A stretch of 40,558 nt of DNA, from positions 1 to 40,558 of the forward strand of contig JANYKG010000117.1 in assembly GCA_025358205.1 (NCBI GenBank), read 5' to 3'. Positions 16,674-25,753 of the stretch are shown here, piece by piece. The stretch's first letter is position 1; the number at the start of each line of letters is the position of its first letter. The position numbers were made by a program, and so were the translations under genes. The notes under the pieces were generated by a model. That model searched no databases, was not told the origin of the DNA, and saw only the letters and a list, made by a program, of their open reading frames with translations. This DNA comes from Armatimonadota bacterium. Its GTDB lineage: Bacteria > Armatimonadota > UBA5829 > DTJY01.

Positions 16674-16739
16674 GCATTATTCATAAAACATGAATAATGC
16701 TCGGAAGGCCGCGGATTATGCGGGAGATGCACAATCCGC
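16674..16739 (+). repeat. Dispersed double-hairpin element, copy 3
   Basis: Hairpin A has perfect 11-base arms GCATTATTCAT (16674-16684) and ATGAATAATGC (16690-16700) with loop AAAAC. Hairpin B has arms GCGGATTATGC (16711-16721) and GCACAATCCGC (16729-16739) with a single wobble. Linker TCGGAAGGCC. It ends four bases before the -35 box of the glycyl radical enzyme promoter. Confidence 0.85.
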
Positions 16740-16742
16740 GCT

Positions 16743-16770
16743 TGGAGTTTTGGATTTCTTGGTGTATAAT
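16743..16770 (+). promoter_or_regulatory. Promoter of the glycyl radical enzyme
   Basis: TTGGAG (16743-16748), 16-base spacer, perfect TATAAT (16765-16770). The transcript would start near 16777, so in-frame starts before that, such as an ATG at 16690 inside the repeat, are not used from it. Confidence 0.65.
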
Positions 16771-16809
16771 GATGGCATGACGCGATCGCTCGGAGAGGAG
16801 GACTCGAAC

Positions 16810-19053
16810 ATGGCGAAAGACAACGGCATCAATCGGCGGGACTTCCTCAGGACAGGCGCGGCTGCACTGGGCGGCGGGCTGCTCTATCTGAGCGCGGGCG
16901 GACAGGCGGAGGCCGGATCGGAGAAGCTTATGCAAACCTTGACCTCCCCTACTACCTTCCCAAGTCCCAAAAGGCTATCCGATATCACCCACGCACTGGC
17001 GCAGCGCGGACTGAGCGGCGAGTTCGGACGCGCGACCGTGTCTGCAGGTGTGAAGCTGGAAGACCTGATGGACGTGACGGGCGTCTCAGAGGAGATGCGC
17101 TGTGCTCATGCCATCGAGTTCATCGCCGAAAGAGCGCCCCTGCGCATACTCCCAGGCGAGCGGATAGTCGGCTCGGCCACCTACAACGAGGCGGTCCACC
17201 ACGCGATCCCCATCTACAACAAGGGGAGTGTCAGCCACACCACCCTCGGATTCGACAAGGCGCTTCGGGTCGGCTATAAGGGCCTGCGCAAGGAGATCGA
17301 GGATCGGCAGACGCGCGGCGGACTCGATGACAAGGGCGCGGACGTGCTGAACGCGATGAAACTCTGCCTCGACGCCGCTGGTCTCTGGCACGGCCGACAC
17401 CTGAAGCAACTCTCCGAGCTTATCGCCCAGTCCTCCGGCGATGAGAAAGCCGGTTACGAGCGGGTCTACGCCAATCTGCGCAGTGTACCCGAGAACACAC
17501 CGACCACCTTCGCCGAAGCGGTCCAGTCGCTCTGGTTCATGTACGCGTTCCAGAGGCTATGCGGCAACTGGTCGGGCATCGGGCGCATTGATGAGATGCT
17601 CGGCCCATACCTGAAGCACGACCTGGCTAGCGGCAAGACCACGCTTGACGAGGCGCGCGAGGACCTGGCCCACTTCTGGGTCAAGGGCACTGAGTGGATC
17701 GGCGGGATAGAAGGGCGCGGAAGCGGTGACGCACAGCACTACCAGAACATCGTCCTCGCAGGCGTGGACGCTCACGGCAACGAGATAACCAATGAGGTCA
17801 CCTACCTCGTGCTGGACGTGGTCGAGGAACTGCACATCAGTGACTATCCGATCGCTGTTAGGCTCAATTCGCATACGCCTGACAAGCTCCTCAAACGCAT
17901 TGCTGAGGTCCAACGGCACGGCGGCGGGATCGTGGCGGTCTACAACGAAGATGTCGTCATCAAGTCGCTGTGCAAGTTCGGCTATCCGCTGGACGAGGCG
18001 CGCCGGTTCGCCAACGACGGCTGCTGGGAGGCAATTGTCCCCGGCAAGACCAACTTCATCTACTCGCCGCAGGACACGCTCCTCATGCTGCAGAAGGCGC
18101 TGCCCCTTAGCGGTGATACTAAGGGCAACCCGGATTATCCCGATTTCGACGGCCTGTACGCGGCGTTTGCGAAGGAGCTTCAGACCGCTGTGGACGCGCA
18201 CAACGCAGGCGCGGACGGATATTCGGTCGGAGGCGGACCTGCCCCGCTCGTGTCGCTGATGATCGAGGGGTGCATCGAAAAGGCTCGCGGGTACTACGAC
18301 CGTGGACCGAAATACACGGTACTTGCGCCGCACATGGGCGGCATCGCAAACACCGCGAACAGCCTCCTCGCGATCAAGAAGCTGGTCTACGATGAAAAGC
18401 TTCTGACGCTGAGCGAGTTCCTGGACATCCTCGGCTCCGACTGGGAGGGCCAGGAGAACCTGCGCAGGATGGTGCTCAGCCGCATCGAGTTCTACGGCAA
18501 CGACAGCGACGAGGCCGATGCGATGGTGAAGCGAGTGTTCGACGATTACACATCAATGGCCGCAAAAGTCAGGGAGCGAAACGGAGTGCTCCGACCTGCC
18601 GGGATCAGTACGTTCGGCAGAGAGATCGAGTGGCGCGCTCACCGAACGGCTACTGCAGACGGCCACCGCAAGGGCGAGATACTTGCGACCAACTTCTCGC
18701 CGTCGCCGGGTACGGACAAGATCGGCCCAACCGCCGCGTTGAAGTCATACTGCAAGATGGATTTTTCCAATCTGCCGAACATCGGCACGGTGGAGCTGAA
18801 GGTGCTGCCCGCATCGGTGAAGGGTGAGCAAGGCGTGAGGGCGCTCGTCGGCCTGATGAAGAGCTTCGTGAAGCTCGGCGGCTGCTTCATGCACATTGAC
18901 GTGGTGGACACCGCGATGCTCCTTGACGCCCAGCGGCATCCCGAGAAGTACCCGAACCTCTCAGTCCGAATCGCGGGCTGGTCGGCCCGGTTCGCGACCA
19001 TGGACAAGAACTGGCAGGACATGGTCATCGGCCGCACCCAGCAGGCGGTGTAA
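16810..19053 (+). CDS. Glycyl radical enzyme with twin-arginine signal, substrate unknown
   Basis: A 747-residue pyruvate formate-lyase/dehydratase-type glycyl radical enzyme. The active-site thiyl cysteine is Cys405 in NDGCWE, with Glu407 two residues on, the CxE pattern of eliminases rather than the CC of pyruvate formate-lyase. The glycyl radical site is Gly723 in VRIAGWSARF, 24 residues from the end. The N-terminus is a textbook Tat signal: NRRDFLRTG (8-16), a hydrophobic Ala/Gly/Leu stretch and AEA at 33-35. AGGAGG precedes ATG 16810. A second start, ATG 16930 (residue 41), lies just after the cleavage site, with GGAG exactly 6 bases before it. The activase follows 80 bases downstream. 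Tat export of an oxygen-sensitive radical enzyme is unusual. Substrate not assignable by eye. Confidence 0.88.
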   Translation: MAKDNGINRRDFLRTGAAALGGGLLYLSAGGQAEAGSEKLMQTLTSPTTFPSPKRLSDITHALAQRGLSGEFGRATVSAGVKLEDLMDVTGVSEEMRCAHAIEFIAERAPLRILPGERIVGSATYNEAVHHAIPIYNKGSVSHTTLGFDKALRVGYKGLRKEIEDRQTRGGLDDKGADVLNAMKLCLDAAGLWHGRHLKQLSELIAQSSGDEKAGYERVYANLRSVPENTPTTFAEAVQSLWFMYAFQRLCGNWSGIGRIDEMLGPYLKHDLASGKTTLDEAREDLAHFWVKGTEWIGGIEGRGSGDAQHYQNIVLAGVDAHGNEITNEVTYLVLDVVEELHISDYPIAVRLNSHTPDKLLKRIAEVQRHGGGIVAVYNEDVVIKSLCKFGYPLDEARRFANDGCWEAIVPGKTNFIYSPQDTLLMLQKALPLSGDTKGNPDYPDFDGLYAAFAKELQTAVDAHNAGADGYSVGGGPAPLVSLMIEGCIEKARGYYDRGPKYTVLAPHMGGIANTANSLLAIKKLVYDEKLLTLSEFLDILGSDWEGQENLRRMVLSRIEFYGNDSDEADAMVKRVFDDYTSMAAKVRERNGVLRPAGISTFGREIEWRAHRTATADGHRKGEILATNFSPSPGTDKIGPTAALKSYCKMDFSNLPNIGTVELKVLPASVKGEQGVRALVGLMKSFVKLGGCFMHIDVVDTAMLLDAQRHPEKYPNLSVRIAGWSARFATMDKNWQDMVIGRTQQAV

Positions 19054-19133: not shown

Positions 19134-20045
19134 TTGACTACCGGCGCTATCTTCGACATCCAGCGATTCTGCACGCATGACGGACCAGGGATACGGACGA
19201 CCGTGTTCCTGAAAGGCTGCCCGCTGAACTGCGCGTGGTGCCACAACCCTGAGTCGAAACGCCGCCAACGCGATATGTTCTACACCCCGCACCTGTGCAT
19301 CGCGTGCGGACGATGCGCGGCCCGGTGTCTCCATCACGCTCACCTAATGGCGGATGAGTGCCATGTATACGACCGGCACAAGTGCGCTCTTTGTTTTGAG
19401 TGCGCCGAAGTCTGCTACAGTGGGGCGTTGGCCGTAGCAGGTTCGGACATAACGGCAGAGCAGGCGCTGGCCGAGGTGGAAAAGGACCGCGTGTTCTACG
19501 AGGAATCCGGCGGCGGCATGACCCTCTCCGGCGGCGAACCGACCGCTCAGATCGAGTTCACCCGCGCGATCCTCGAGGGCGCTCGTTCGGCGAGTATCCA
19601 CACATGCATCGAGACCTGCGGCTTCGGCCCGGCTGATCGGTTCGCGGAGCTTGTGCCGCTTGTGGAACTGTTCCTGTGGGACATCAAGGACACCGATGAA
19701 ACACGGCATCTCGCGAACACCGGCGTTCCCCTGCCGCCCATACTGGAGAACCTGAGGCTGGTTGACGAGGCCGGCGGGACGACCATCCTGCGATGCCTGC
19801 TGATCCCGGTCGTGAACCTGACAGAATACCATCTGGACGGACTGGCGCAGATATACCGGTCACTCTCGAACTGCCAGGGGATTGAACTGCTCGCATATCA
19901 TCCCTTCGGCGACTCCAAGCGCGCGCGTCTCGGTCTCGCAGCCAGTGATCTCGCCTGCGATGCGCCGACGGAGGAGCAGATATCTCGCGCCCGAGAGTAC
20001 CTAACGGACATCTGCGGAATTGACGGCGTGCATTCCTCGGCCTAG
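19134..20045 (+). CDS. Glycyl radical enzyme activating protein (radical SAM)
   Basis: A 303-residue radical SAM activase. The [4Fe-4S]-SAM motif is CPLNCAWC (Cys29, Cys33, Cys36), followed by two ferredoxin-like clusters CIACGRCAARC (Cys55-65) and CALCFECAEVC (Cys84-94), then SGGEP. This is the activase type with an inserted two-cluster domain that installs the glycyl radical on non-PFL enzymes. The TTG at 19134 begins MTTGAIFDIQRF, where family members usually start; a GTG at 19083 in the same frame would add 17 unconserved residues. There is no signal peptide, so it works in the cytosol, on the enzyme encoded just upstream. It ends close to a hairpin-rich region. Confidence 0.9.
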   Translation: MTTGAIFDIQRFCTHDGPGIRTTVFLKGCPLNCAWCHNPESKRRQRDMFYTPHLCIACGRCAARCLHHAHLMADECHVYDRHKCALCFECAEVCYSGALAVAGSDITAEQALAEVEKDRVFYEESGGGMTLSGGEPTAQIEFTRAILEGARSASIHTCIETCGFGPADRFAELVPLVELFLWDIKDTDETRHLANTGVPLPPILENLRLVDEAGGTTILRCLLIPVVNLTEYHLDGLAQIYRSLSNCQGIELLAYHPFGDSKRARLGLAASDLACDAPTEEQISRAREYLTDICGIDGVHSSA

Positions 20046-20264: not shown

Positions 20265-21035
20265 CTACCTCTCGGCGATCCTTATGATACGGTTCATCGC
20301 CGGGTAGCGGTCCTCACTCACAAGCTGCCTGCGCGTGCCATTCTTTGAGACAAACGTCCGGTACGTCGCCACATAGAAGCCGGGATGCCCGCGGTTGATC
20401 AGCTTCCACCGCCCGGAGCCTTCGGTAGTTCTGTCCTGAATCACGTCGTTCGGCAGAGTGACCGACTTCGTCTGCGAATCAACCTGCACCCGACACTCCG
20501 GCTGATACTCCGTCATGATGCGAAAGACCAGGTTGTCCCCCTGCACGTTACCCACAATGCGAACCGGCCTGGACAGGTTATTCTTGAATCTGAGGTCAAT
20601 ATCGTAGTACGCCACAGCCGCATCCCTGCCCAAAGGCGCATACCTCGCAGGCCAGTGGTGCCTGTGCCGCTCCACGATCTCCAGCCCGGCCAACAGCGCC
20701 GCGTTGTAAAGCGTCGTGGAGGTCTGGCAGACTCCCCCACCCCAACTCCGCACAAGCTCGCCGTCGTAACTCACCGGCGCTTTCTCGTAACCCATATCGG
20801 CGGTCCACGGCCCCACGGTCTTCAGGAACGAGAACGTCTGCCCGGGTTGAAGCACGATGTTGTTCAGCTTCTTGGTCGCCAGCACAGCGTTGTTCCGCTG
20901 CGAATCGGTTCGTCCGCGCAGGCTGGTCACGTACGCGCCGATCTCACGCTCCGGCGCCGGGGCTACTGCGGCCCAAACGCCCAACGCGATCACCAGCGCG
21001 ATTCCAATTACCAGCGGGTATGCGCGGGTCTTCAT
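20265..21035 (-). CDS. VanW-family protein
   Basis: A 256-residue protein with an N-terminal signal anchor (YPLVIGIALVIALGVWAAVA) and a VanW domain: LNNIVLQPGQTFSFLKTVGP, then the hallmark SWGGGVCQTSTTLYNAALLAGLE and ERHRHHWP. VanW was named from a vancomycin-resistance cluster but its biochemical role is unknown; members are thought to act outside the membrane on cell-wall or surface material. Its ATG overlaps the TGA of the alpha-2-macroglobulin gene as ATGA, so the two are translationally coupled. This suggests a shared periplasmic job, which is an inference. Confidence 0.88.
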   Translation of the reverse strand: MKTRAYPLVIGIALVIALGVWAAVAPAPEREIGAYVTSLRGRTDSQRNNAVLATKKLNNIVLQPGQTFSFLKTVGPWTADMGYEKAPVSYDGELVRSWGGGVCQTSTTLYNAALLAGLEIVERHRHHWPARYAPLGRDAAVAYYDIDLRFKNNLSRPVRIVGNVQGDNLVFRIMTEYQPECRVQVDSQTKSVTLPNDVIQDRTTEGSGRWKLINRGHPGFYVATYRTFVSKNGTRRQLVSEDRYPAMNRIIRIAER

Positions 21036-24000
21036 CTGATGCTGAACTCCAATTCCGCGGTCGCCGCCCTGATCTCCGGTTGGTACATCGCGAAGACCTG
21101 CGCAGGCAGCGCATGGTAATCACCCGCGAACCCGGCGCGCATCTGGTATGTGAGTATATGCTTGCCCGGCTGCAAATCCTCAACGTAGAAGGATATCTTC
21201 TCGTCACGCACATCCTGCCCAACCCACCAGTCGTACCAGTCCCACTGGTTCACCCGGCCTCGGTCCATGATCTCACAACCCGCCGGGATAGTATCCTCAA
21301 CCAACAGGTGACGCACATATTTGCTGGAATTCACCGTCAGGCGAACCAGAACAACATCGCCCGTCCTGCAGCCCCATATAGGCGACGCAGGTTCCTTATC
21401 GGACGACGCGTCGTAGTAGCTGCTCAGCGGCCAGTAGTACTTTCGCGAAATAGACACTCCACCACCGCTCACCACCGTCGGCGTCAGGTCCTTCGCAAGA
21501 TACTGTCTAAGACTGGTCGTGACGTACATGTTACCGACCCCAATCTTGCGAATTTCCAGGTTGTTTCGACCTTTGAGCAGACCATTGCTTGTAACCACAA
21601 ACTCCGGTTCGAAGATGTCGGCTTTCGTGAAATGCTTCCCGCCGACCGGTTTGCCGTTGACCAGCACAGTCACGCTAAAGTCCGGTGCAAGCTCATTGGA
21701 TGCCTTGAAGAATTCCGCCATCGCGTACAGGACCATCGCTGTGTCGCGCGTCGAGTACCAACAATCGCTCTGACGCTGCTCCATCAGCCAGCGGACAATC
21801 TGGATGGCCCGTGGATCGCTCGGATTGGCCTTCAGCGACGCCTGCAGTGCAAGCGCCGTCGTCTCCACATCGTCTGCGTGGTACTTCTCGGCCCCGTCCC
21901 AGTGCATCATCCCGGACTCGACCACGGCGTGATCGAGCAGCCACTTGAGAGCCAAGTTAGCATTGTCCTTCTGCCCCGTGTGCTGGAATGCTAGCGCCAG
22001 AAGGGCGAGCGCCTTGCTACTCAATACCGGACTCCGTGCCAGATTGTCCAGTCCCGCATTTGCAGCGCCGCCCGAAAGCGCTTGCACATAGTATGCAAAT
22101 GCCTTCGTGTCAGCAGGCAGTCTGGAGTCTAGGAGTATCTCACCCAGTCGCCTGAGACCGTTATTCAGGATATCTTCGTTCACCGCAAACCCGGCGTCGC
22201 GCGCCTGGATCAGCCCGTAGCACACATATGCCGTCATCCACGGATCGTCCTCACCGTACTCAGACCAGCCCCACCCACCGTCAGTTAGCTGGAAACGGTA
22301 GAGGCGGAAAAGGCCGTTCTGCACCATATCCGGTAGCTGCTTCTCAAGTTTTGCATTTCGTTGGCCTAGAGCCTTGAACGACTTGGACAGAATCACGTCC
22401 GGCAGGAACGAGCTTGTTGTCTGCTCCGTGCAGCCGTAGGGATACTGCGCCAGATACTCCAGCGAGCCGAGCATCGCCGACGCAAGCGACGGAGCAAGTC
22501 TTATCTGCAGACGTGTCGTTCCGGGAATGGCGTCGCTTCGGACGATGATCGTATCCTTAGATGTGGACGATCCGCTAAGCGATCCGGTGGTCATCGTGCG
22601 GCGTTCCACCCCATGCGGATACACCGGCAGAACGGTCTGCATGGCGTCCCCGGCGCTGTCCCCGGATGCCTTGACTGACACCAGGAACTCACCGGGCTTC
22701 GGCGCGCTGATCTGCCAGTTTACTCGCGCTATCTCGCCGTTACGCACCCTGACCCTCCGCGTGGCCTTACCGTCGAGCGTAAGACCAGCCGATTCGAAGA
22801 GCAGGTCCACGTTCTGGTCGCGACCGGTGTAGTTGTGAACAGCCGTCGTTATGGTCGCGCTGTCGGTCTGCACCATGAACCGAGGTGTCTCCAGGCGGAC
22901 CATGAAGTCCTGCCTTGATAGCACGGTGTTCTTCGCCTCGCCGCACATGGTGTCGAGAGTAATTCCCCGCACGGTCGCCCGCCATGTCGTGAGGTTGTCA
23001 GGCAGTTGGAAGCTCACAGTCGCCTCGCCCTTGCCATCGGTGAGAACGGACGGGTTCCAGTAAGCCGTGTCCAGGAACCGCTTGCGCACACGAATGTCCT
23101 CCATCCGAGGCTTGTTCGCAACCGGCGCACCGGCCTTGTCCGGATCGCTCAGGTATATCTGAGGGAACGAGAAGTTCGTGCTGACCGCATTAGCTTTTCG
23201 CGCATAGAAATAGCCCAACATCGCTGGGGTGTCGTCCTCGGCGATGGCGTAGATTGCCTCGTCCACAACGCCGATGGAAACCTCCGCCTGCGCCGATTTG
23301 CCGTTCGCATCAGTCGTCTTGATCTTGTAGGTCGCTGCCTCGCCGGGCTTGTACTTGCTCTTGTCCGGCGCGACCTGCACGCGAAGCTCTTGCGTTCCGA
23401 GCGACACCCGCGCACGTGCCTCCTGGCTCGCGAACTGCTTGTCCTTCACGTAGCATACACTGATGTAGAAGTTGGGCCTGTACGCTTTCGTGATCGGAAT
23501 CTTCACCAGCGTGGACTTGCCGGTCAGACGCACAGTTTGGCTGTCGTAGATCCTCGATCCTTCGACCGTGACGAGCGCGGTCGCGCCCGGCGTCTTGGTG
23601 TTGATCAGCGCTTTAGCGGTGTCTCCGGCGTTGTAGACCTTCTTGTCGGTGATGATCTGAAGGTCAGGATAGCTGCCGTAGCCCTCATCCTCATAGGCCT
23701 CCGAATACGACCAGACGTAGGCCTCGCTGATGACCTTGTTCCGCCTGCCGTCTCTCGCCCAGACTTCGATGCGAATCTCGCCTGAGCGACTTATCTCGAC
23801 CGGTATGGACGCATGCCCAGCGTTATCTGTGGTGACTTGCGCATCCTTCAACGTCTCGACAGAGCTTCCGTCCCTGGTCCACTTGACCCGCGCAACCTTG
23901 ACGGCGAGACCCTGGCTCTTCATCGGATGATGATCGTAGTCCACCGCGCTGATAGCGACATTCACCTTCGCGCCCGGCTCTGCCACATACCTGTCCGGCG

Positions 24001-25753
24001 TGACGTCAATCGCAAACTCGCCGCGTGTCGCCACCACCGAGCCTGTCCCAGTAGCATCCCGGCCCACGCGATCTATGACCGTCGCCTCAATGGTGAACTG
24101 CTGGTCGGAGTCCCAGGCATACTCCCCTTCAGGCTGCGGCCAATCCGCAGGCGCCTCAATCACCGCATTGCCATTCGCATCCGTGGTGACCTCGCTTTCC
24201 GTCACCACATCGCCGTATCCGCCGTAATCTTGGTAACCTGGGTTCTCATCCAAATAATCCTCTTCTTCATCGGTGAAGAGCCAGTAAGGCACCCGGCTAA
24301 CCACGTACCGCACCTTCGCGTTGGGCACCGGCGCTCCGAAATAGTACTGCGCCGAGACGTTCGCCTTAACTATCTCACCGCGCGTATATCGCTTCTTCGG
24401 AAAGCTCACCTTCACGCTGAACTCAGGTTTCTTGTACGCGGCAACCTGGAACTGCACAGGCTCCCTGTCCTGCTCGCCGGAGATAATTGTCGAGATGGTG
24501 TAGTATCCGGTCGCGGTCTCCGGGTTCAGATCGAAGCTTCCGTTGTAGGAGCCGTACCGATTTGTCCGCGCGGTGGTCTTGTAGATGAGCGTGTCCTTGG
24601 GATCGCGGACCTCGATTGTTACCGGCAAAGATGAAGCCACCGCGTAACCGGTCGGCGTTTGTCGCCTGATAATCCCTTTGAAGTAGACCTTCTGCCCCGG
24701 TCTGTACACCGGTCTGTCGGTATACCCGTACACCACGCTGTTAGACGAATCACCGCCCTCATACCACGAAGATACGAACGCCGCCGAATCGCCTTTGCGG
24801 GCGACCAGCAATTGCTCCCTGCTCCCATCGTTACTGCTTGGAACCGCGAGCGCCAACGTCCCATCAACCGTTGTTCTGCCTGAAGCAACTTCCTTCGAGT
24901 CTACATATGCGGACACATCCGTCCCCGGAACAGGCGCGCCGGTCTTCAGGTCAACAGCATAGGCGAGGGTCTGCGATCCCGAAGTCTTCGAGACAAGCCC
25001 GATGGACGTCACCATTAGCCAGCCGAGTTCCTGAAACCCTTCCGATTTCAGCGATGCCACGTATAGTCCCGGCTCCATAACCGGCATGTCAACGCGCTGG
25101 TTGAATATGCCTTCGAGATCGCGCGAGTTGATTGGGACGAACATCGTTTTTGTCAGCGTGAGCGCCCTGTTGTCGTTCAGATTCACATTCGCGGATTTGC
25201 GCGAGTCGCTGTAGTAAGAGTGCAACCCCAACAGCCGCTCCATGGACCCGCTGGAGTTCACCAGGAACGCGTTCAGATCAACCTTGTACAGTCGAAGGAC
25301 CAACGCATCGGAATTCATGAACCCACCGCACGTAATCTGAGGTTTCTCGTCCGGCGTGAAGATGTGCTGGTGGATGTAGAGGTTCAGGTAGGGTGACGCG
25401 GGCTTCAGCTCGGCCTCGATGTTCGCGGTCTTGCTCTCCTCGACTGTGATCTTGACCGGCTCCATGCCGTGCGCTTTGCTGCTGATTGTGAGCTTGTAGT
25501 CACCGGCGGGGATACGCCTAAAATCGAAGCCGCCATCCCGTTTTGACTCGGTGTTGTAGCATGTTACCTCGTCGTACAGTCCCGTATTGGGGGTGAGAGT
25601 GACCGACGCTACCAGCGGATTGCCGGTCTCCTGCGCCACCACCCGGCCTTTCACCGTCCCCACCGGCGTCTCCTGGGCTATTGTGAACGCGAACAGCCCG
25701 GCGGCAACGAGAACGGCCAGCGCTAAGGCGAATCTGAAGCTGCGATGCGTCAT
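21032..25753 (-). CDS. Bacterial alpha-2-macroglobulin with thioester
   Basis: A 1573-residue periplasmic or surface protein. The signal peptide (FALALAVLVAAGLFAFTIAQ) is followed by a carboxypeptidase-regulatory-like domain (GTVKGRVVAQETGNPLVASV), a series of MG beta-sandwich domains with PVYRPGQKVYFKGIIR, the bait/MG7 part and the thioester domain. The thioester motif YGCTEQ is intact, with Cys1108 and Gln1111, followed by the helical alpha-alpha toroid (GGWGWSEYGEDDPWMTAYV) and a C-terminal receptor-like domain. Such proteins trap proteases by covalent capture. The usual bacterial partner, penicillin-binding protein 1C, is absent; instead it sits between a polytopic membrane protein (11 bases upstream) and VanW (4-base overlap). 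The sequence lacks an obvious lipobox. Confidence 0.93.
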   Translation of the reverse strand: MTHRSFRFALALAVLVAAGLFAFTIAQETPVGTVKGRVVAQETGNPLVASVTLTPNTGLYDEVTCYNTESKRDGGFDFRRIPAGDYKLTISSKAHGMEPVKITVEESKTANIEAELKPASPYLNLYIHQHIFTPDEKPQITCGGFMNSDALVLRLYKVDLNAFLVNSSGSMERLLGLHSYYSDSRKSANVNLNDNRALTLTKTMFVPINSRDLEGIFNQRVDMPVMEPGLYVASLKSEGFQELGWLMVTSIGLVSKTSGSQTLAYAVDLKTGAPVPGTDVSAYVDSKEVASGRTTVDGTLALAVPSSNDGSREQLLVARKGDSAAFVSSWYEGGDSSNSVVYGYTDRPVYRPGQKVYFKGIIRRQTPTGYAVASSLPVTIEVRDPKDTLIYKTTARTNRYGSYNGSFDLNPETATGYYTISTIISGEQDREPVQFQVAAYKKPEFSVKVSFPKKRYTRGEIVKANVSAQYYFGAPVPNAKVRYVVSRVPYWLFTDEEEDYLDENPGYQDYGGYGDVVTESEVTTDANGNAVIEAPADWPQPEGEYAWDSDQQFTIEATVIDRVGRDATGTGSVVATRGEFAIDVTPDRYVAEPGAKVNVAISAVDYDHHPMKSQGLAVKVARVKWTRDGSSVETLKDAQVTTDNAGHASIPVEISRSGEIRIEVWARDGRRNKVISEAYVWSYSEAYEDEGYGSYPDLQIITDKKVYNAGDTAKALINTKTPGATALVTVEGSRIYDSQTVRLTGKSTLVKIPITKAYRPNFYISVCYVKDKQFASQEARARVSLGTQELRVQVAPDKSKYKPGEAATYKIKTTDANGKSAQAEVSIGVVDEAIYAIAEDDTPAMLGYFYARKANAVSTNFSFPQIYLSDPDKAGAPVANKPRMEDIRVRKRFLDTAYWNPSVLTDGKGEATVSFQLPDNLTTWRATVRGITLDTMCGEAKNTVLSRQDFMVRLETPRFMVQTDSATITTAVHNYTGRDQNVDLLFESAGLTLDGKATRRVRVRNGEIARVNWQISAPKPGEFLVSVKASGDSAGDAMQTVLPVYPHGVERRTMTTGSLSGSSTSKDTIIVRSDAIPGTTRLQIRLAPSLASAMLGSLEYLAQYPYGCTEQTTSSFLPDVILSKSFKALGQRNAKLEKQLPDMVQNGLFRLYRFQLTDGGWGWSEYGEDDPWMTAYVCYGLIQARDAGFAVNEDILNNGLRRLGEILLDSRLPADTKAFAYYVQALSGGAANAGLDNLARSPVLSSKALALLALAFQHTGQKDNANLALKWLLDHAVVESGMMHWDGAEKYHADDVETTALALQASLKANPSDPRAIQIVRWLMEQRQSDCWYSTRDTAMVLYAMAEFFKASNELAPDFSVTVLVNGKPVGGKHFTKADIFEPEFVVTSNGLLKGRNNLEIRKIGVGNMYVTTSLRQYLAKDLTPTVVSGGGVSISRKYYWPLSSYYDASSDKEPASPIWGCRTGDVVLVRLTVNSSKYVRHLLVEDTIPAGCEIMDRGRVNQWDWYDWWVGQDVRDEKISFYVEDLQPGKHILTYQMRAGFAGDYHALPAQVFAMYQPEIRAATAELEFSIR

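Follow-up and report, generated by a model that had tools for sequence, protein, structure and literature searches.

A glycyl radical enzyme gene with a conserved Tat signal in an Armatimonadota genome and its relatives

Glycyl radical enzymes (GREs) are regarded as strictly confined to the cell interior, since SAM-dependent activases install their radical and oxygen destroys it. To our knowledge all characterised GREs act in the cytosol or within microcompartments, and no protein-radical enzyme is known to us to be transported by Tat. One gene in the 40,558-nucleotide Armatimonadota contig analysed here (the window) raises the question of whether this picture is complete, as a preliminary description reported a GRE with a twin-arginine (Tat) signal at 16810-19053 on the plus strand. 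No report of an exported or periplasmic GRE was found in the literature searched, where subscription journals are little covered; the enzyme class and the export route are each known and their combination was not previously seen in that literature. The export signal on these GREs suggests that radical chemistry also takes place outside the cell membrane.

Identity of the enzyme

The frame opened by ATG 16810 encodes 747 residues and carries the two domains expected of the GRE superfamily, with Pfam matches to PFL-like (320 bits) and Gly_radical (76.5 bits). Both superfamily motifs, the catalytic loop with C405 and the glycyl loop with G723 (R-x-x-G), were found by alignment, C405-W-E407 falling on the GCVE of glycerol and diol dehydratase and G723 on the glycyl radical position (Table 1). 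The NDGCWE motif occurs in 23/23 rows of the Tat-type group described below and in 95/95 other relatives, and the catalytic and radical motifs are complete in all 21 Tat-type members with a whole C-terminus (L046 and L123 are not counted as their sequences end early).

Table 1. Positions of the features discussed (all on the plus strand of the window)
Feature	Coordinates	Strand	Evidence
Ribosome-binding site AGGAGG of the long form	16796..16801	+	8 bases 5' of ATG 16810
Tat signal peptide (predicted), residues 1-35	16810..16914	+	TAT_signal match, orthologue alignment, dN<dS, pLDDT <50 at residues 1-46
Internal GGAG and ATG (residue 41)	16920..16932	+	Sequence; not conserved as a start
Folded GRE core, residues ~51-747	16960..19053	+	PFL-like barrel PF02901 and Gly_radical PF01228; model, fold matches
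N402-D-G-C405-W-E407, thiyl cysteine (TGC 18022-18024) and catalytic-base glutamate	18013..18030	+	Alignment
Glycyl radical loop V719-R-I-A-G723-W-S-A-R-F (GGC 18976-18978)	18964..18993	+	Alignment
Radical-SAM GRE activase (TIGR02494), TTG start 19134	19134..20045	+	305 bits against a cut-off of 174

An AlphaFold model built from a 34-sequence alignment had a mean pLDDT of 88.9, with the fold beginning near residue 50, after the low-scoring N-terminal segment. Foldseek and VIA-align grouped this model with diol dehydratase, glycerol dehydratase, CutC and HypD. The B12-independent glycerol and 1,2-propanediol dehydratases (1r8w, 5i2g) and the trans-4-hydroxyproline dehydratase HypD (6vxc) share the fold over residues ~50-747 (VIA Z 37-39) and have in common with the window's enzyme a GC-x-E motif, a glycyl loop and a dedicated radical-SAM activase. 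Identity to these enzymes is 24-28%, however, and only the window's enzyme has a signal peptide; its glycyl loop reads AGW where the dehydratases have AGY, and its N-W-S-G-I aligns with N-G-H-S-I of glycerol dehydratase. GREs of the PflD/YbiW type, whose structures (8id0, 8id7) contain 1,5-anhydrohexitol-6-phosphates, belong to the same superfamily and share the fold (Z 37.4-38.5) at 25-26% identity, but lack a signal. These structures show that sugar-like substrates can be bound by GREs, while an extracytoplasmic enzyme would not usually be expected to have phosphorylated ligands of this kind.

None of the named NCBIfam GRE equivalogs was reached, all scores lying far under their cut-offs (TIGR01774, the PFL2/glycerol dehydratase subfamily, gave 328 bits against 678). 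A named GRE function was rejected on these grounds, and the enzyme thus belongs to an unnamed subfamily. Judging by the Cys-x-Glu motif, a dehydratase or eliminase type of reaction (C-O or similar) is most likely. The substrate is weakly constrained because the neighbouring genes differ between genomes; a polyhydroxy or glycan-derived compound would be our guess. The host genome encodes two further GREs, both without a Tat-like N-terminus.

The Tat signal and its conservation

The N-terminus has the layout of a Tat substrate: an n-region with NRRDFLR, a hydrophobic h-region and an A-x-A motif ahead of a putative cleavage site. NRRDFLRTG at residues 8-16, the hydrophobic stretch at 17-29 and A-E-A at 33-35 are all present on the sequence as the preliminary description gave them. 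Pfam TAT_signal (PF10518) has 22 matches over the whole host genome, one of which is 16828-16884 in the GRE gene (22.6 bits, or 23.4 with its frame, against a cut-off of 22.7; E 7.4e-4). TIGR01409 gave 14.5 bits, under its cut-off of 16.7, which is reached by three orthologues (L012, L026 and L041); the window's own profile scores are therefore to be read as at or slightly under the curated cut-offs. The host genome also encodes Tat machinery (TatC and two TatA/B genes). The reading frame is open further 5' of 16810, up to ATG 16690; in the alignment with L005, the nearest orthologue (79% identity), the stretch 16690-16810 has no evident likeness, and MAKDNGI(N/D)RRDF is kept between the two proteins.

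Relatives of 45-79% identity were collected from a scan of genome contigs (genome_contigs) and three whole-genome searches, the source genomes being apparently nearly all metagenome-assembled. In the window and 22 orthologues the N-terminus carries RR, then D/E/G, F/L and a hydrophobic stretch, with RK in place of RR in L022. These orthologues reach down to ~56% identity and come from at least four bacterial phyla: Armatimonadota (L005, L091, L020, L021, L023), Phycisphaerae (L010, L014, L126), Hydrogenedentota (L012, L026, L028, L029, L031, L036, L041, L043, L046, L110, L113, L123) and Bacteroidota (L022), with L011 Tat-type but unplaced. L117, very similar to L026, is left out of the count, and the N-terminus of L118 is cut. 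A clean A-x-A motif is missing from several Tat-type members. An RR signal was found in none of the ~64 more distant relatives (Bacillota, Lentisphaerota, Chloroflexota and others), whose N-termini begin after the signal position, shortly 5' of the first conserved core motif.

The signal is clustered on the protein trees. As a label it changes twice on an 86-protein tree and three times on a 55-protein tree from which the N-terminal columns were removed, as against 17.8 changes for shuffled labels (0/500 shuffles as low); a single origin may be compatible with the latter tree. The signal is absent from one subclade (L017, L040, L094, L096) and from the singles L013 and L015, though these are placed within the Tat group or next to it. 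In 9/9 pairs tested dN was below dS over the signal codons (0.16 against 0.65 for window/L005; 0 against 0.26 for L028/L029), and in most of the nine pairs these codons are less constrained than the mature part. TatC was found in 15/18 host genomes of Tat-type members; the three remaining genomes include that of L091, whose completeness is only 80%.

Taken at the sequence level, the Tat signal at this N-terminus is real and evolutionarily conserved. The original proposal of a GRE with a Tat signal is borne out by the profile match and the 22 orthologues with an equivalent segment; orthologues lacking RR, which would have pointed to a chance N-terminus, are not what the clade presents. A chance N-terminus was accordingly rejected on conservation, dN<dS and the TAT_signal match. 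The product of 16810-19053 is probably a Tat-exported GRE, one of a conserved clade of enzymes of this type.

Charging, export and competing explanations

GRE activation needs SAM and a reductant, and Tat transports folded proteins. The gene at 19134-20045 encodes a radical-SAM activase of the kind that serves the GRE superfamily and is the only one over the TIGR02494 cut-off in the host genome. Activases were found in 18/18 genomes and are GRE-adjacent in many loci, and no recognisable signal peptide was seen on any activase read, including the window's own; co-export of the activase was rejected for this reason. Because the activases lack a recognisable signal and depend on SAM and reductant, activation is expected to occur in the cytosol, and since Tat accepts folded proteins the simplest order would be folding, charging and then export. 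In this scheme the GRE would fold in the cytosol, the activase would install the glycyl radical there, the folded and charged protein would pass through Tat and the enzyme would act outside the membrane. The signal-less activases thus lend inferential support to the earlier suggestion that the exported enzyme is charged before transport. The host genome has three GREs and one activase over the cut-off, which adjoins the Tat-type GRE.

Precedent for Tat export of metabolic enzymes comes from Tat-type Gfo/Idh/MocA oxidoreductases and Moco catechol dehydroxylases (PMC7028382). As in these cases, a folded, cofactor-bearing enzyme carries an RR signal; the cargo here would differ in bearing a protein-backbone radical instead of a bound cofactor.

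We consider the chances about even that the whole clade is charged in the cytosol, exported by Tat and active outside the membrane, with a lectin-like domain in Hydrogenedentota holding glycan substrates, and so represents extracytoplasmic radical enzymology in anaerobes. An alternative is that the signal is only a membrane tether or is non-functional, the enzyme being active, as other GREs are, on the cytosolic side of the membrane. The known location of characterised GREs and the lack of a clean A-x-A in several members speak for this, but it appears unlikely given that RR(D/E/G)F/L and the hydrophobic stretch are under purifying selection, that Tat machinery is present and that Hydrogenedentota members carry a lectin-type insert. 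It is less probable still that the enzyme is radical-free outside, its radical lost in transit or not installed in the first place, and has some other function, for example binding: glycyl radicals are oxygen-labile and some hosts have oxidases, but no point speaks directly for this reading, and the complete motifs in 21/21 members, together with an activase that adjoins the GRE in many loci, argue against it. We give very little credence to a mis-called start, in which an ordinary cytosolic GRE would have an in-frame extension by chance. The frame is indeed open 5' of 16810 and extension-less relatives exist, but a chance extension would not be expected to recur in 22 orthologues down to ~56% identity, with dN<dS and a profile match.

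It was also proposed that the gene yields two products, an exported long form and a cytosolic short form from ATG 16930. This ATG (M41) does lie exactly 6 bases after a GGAG, but the two ribosome-binding sites are not equally good as had been claimed, as ATG 16810 has AGGAGG and ATG 16930 only GGAG. Of 210 in-frame ATGs inside the likely genes of the window, 7 (3.3%) are preceded by GGAG, GAGG or AGGA at a spacing of 4-9, and because of this background an internal GGAG-ATG alone is weak evidence. Signal-less relatives begin near ATG 16930, and at the aligned position L091 (a 67% relative belonging to a different family of the class) has an ATG, with GGGAG 8 bases 5'. However, the window and L091 are the only two of 19 Tat-type genes with an ATG and ribosome-binding site there, and neither L005 nor most other orthologues have a start codon at this position. 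The internal site is therefore not kept, a dual start as a conserved feature was rejected on its absence from L005, and two forms from one gene are not borne out as a general feature. With only L091 sharing the site against the 3.3% background, the proposal is a lead for two genomes and no more, and we think it improbable for the window's gene.

Returning to Tat export of a charged enzyme, an intact GRE with a conserved export signal offers a testable case that such enzymes act at the cell surface or in an anoxic periplasm. If it holds, proteins with a backbone radical are among the cargo that Tat can transport, and radical lyases may be used beyond the membrane by uncultured bacteria that degrade glycans.

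Inserted domains, oxygen and gene neighbourhood

Most Hydrogenedentota members have an insert of ~210 residues past core residue ~169, between two GRE core helices. The one scanned, in L036 (L036:4986-7895, residues ~176-390), matches Pfam Laminin_G_3 (E 3.3e-14), and an aligned concanavalin/laminin-G-like insert is also found in L026, L028, L029, L031, L041, L043, L046, L113 and L123. Segment 191-382 of the L036 model is all-beta. Only GRE cores were among the best matches listed in a structure search with L036, and the assignment thus relies on Pfam and the all-beta segment. In three signal-less relatives from Lentisphaerota/Firestonebacteria (L034:4395-6953, L038 and L042) the insert is a different one, shorter (~130-190 residues) and placed near core residue 90; by eye it resembles a jelly-roll domain, and L034 has no Pfam match beyond the GRE domains.

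With regard to oxygen, no match to heme-copper (COX1) or bd oxidase was found in the window's genome (97% complete) or in the relative G002, which speaks for the export reading. COX1 and/or bd oxidase are present in several other hosts (terminal oxidases occur, for example, in the genomes of L012, L020, L036 and L043), so the periplasm of these hosts need not be anoxic.

Near some members we found Tat-type Gfo/Idh/MocA, sulfatase, GH43 and GH116-type genes, including a Gfo/Idh/MocA gene with TAT_signal near L023. Like the Laminin_G_3 insert of L036 and the aligned inserts in other Hydrogenedentota, these genes fit an extracytoplasmic setting. Among Tat-type loci no widely recurring neighbour other than the activase was seen, and a conserved operon that would name the substrate was rejected, since the other neighbours vary. 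After the activase, the neighbour shared most often is an AraC-type regulator, mostly adjoining signal-less relatives. A family of ~600-residue proteins that seem to have signal peptides and match no Pfam entry adjoins the GRE in a Bacteroidales genome (L022:2608-4389 and L022:10234-12060) and a Hydrogenedentota genome (L043:2765-4573). Elsewhere in the window, a VanW-like gene (20265-21035, minus strand) directly abuts the end of a bacterial alpha-2-macroglobulin gene (21032-25753, minus strand).
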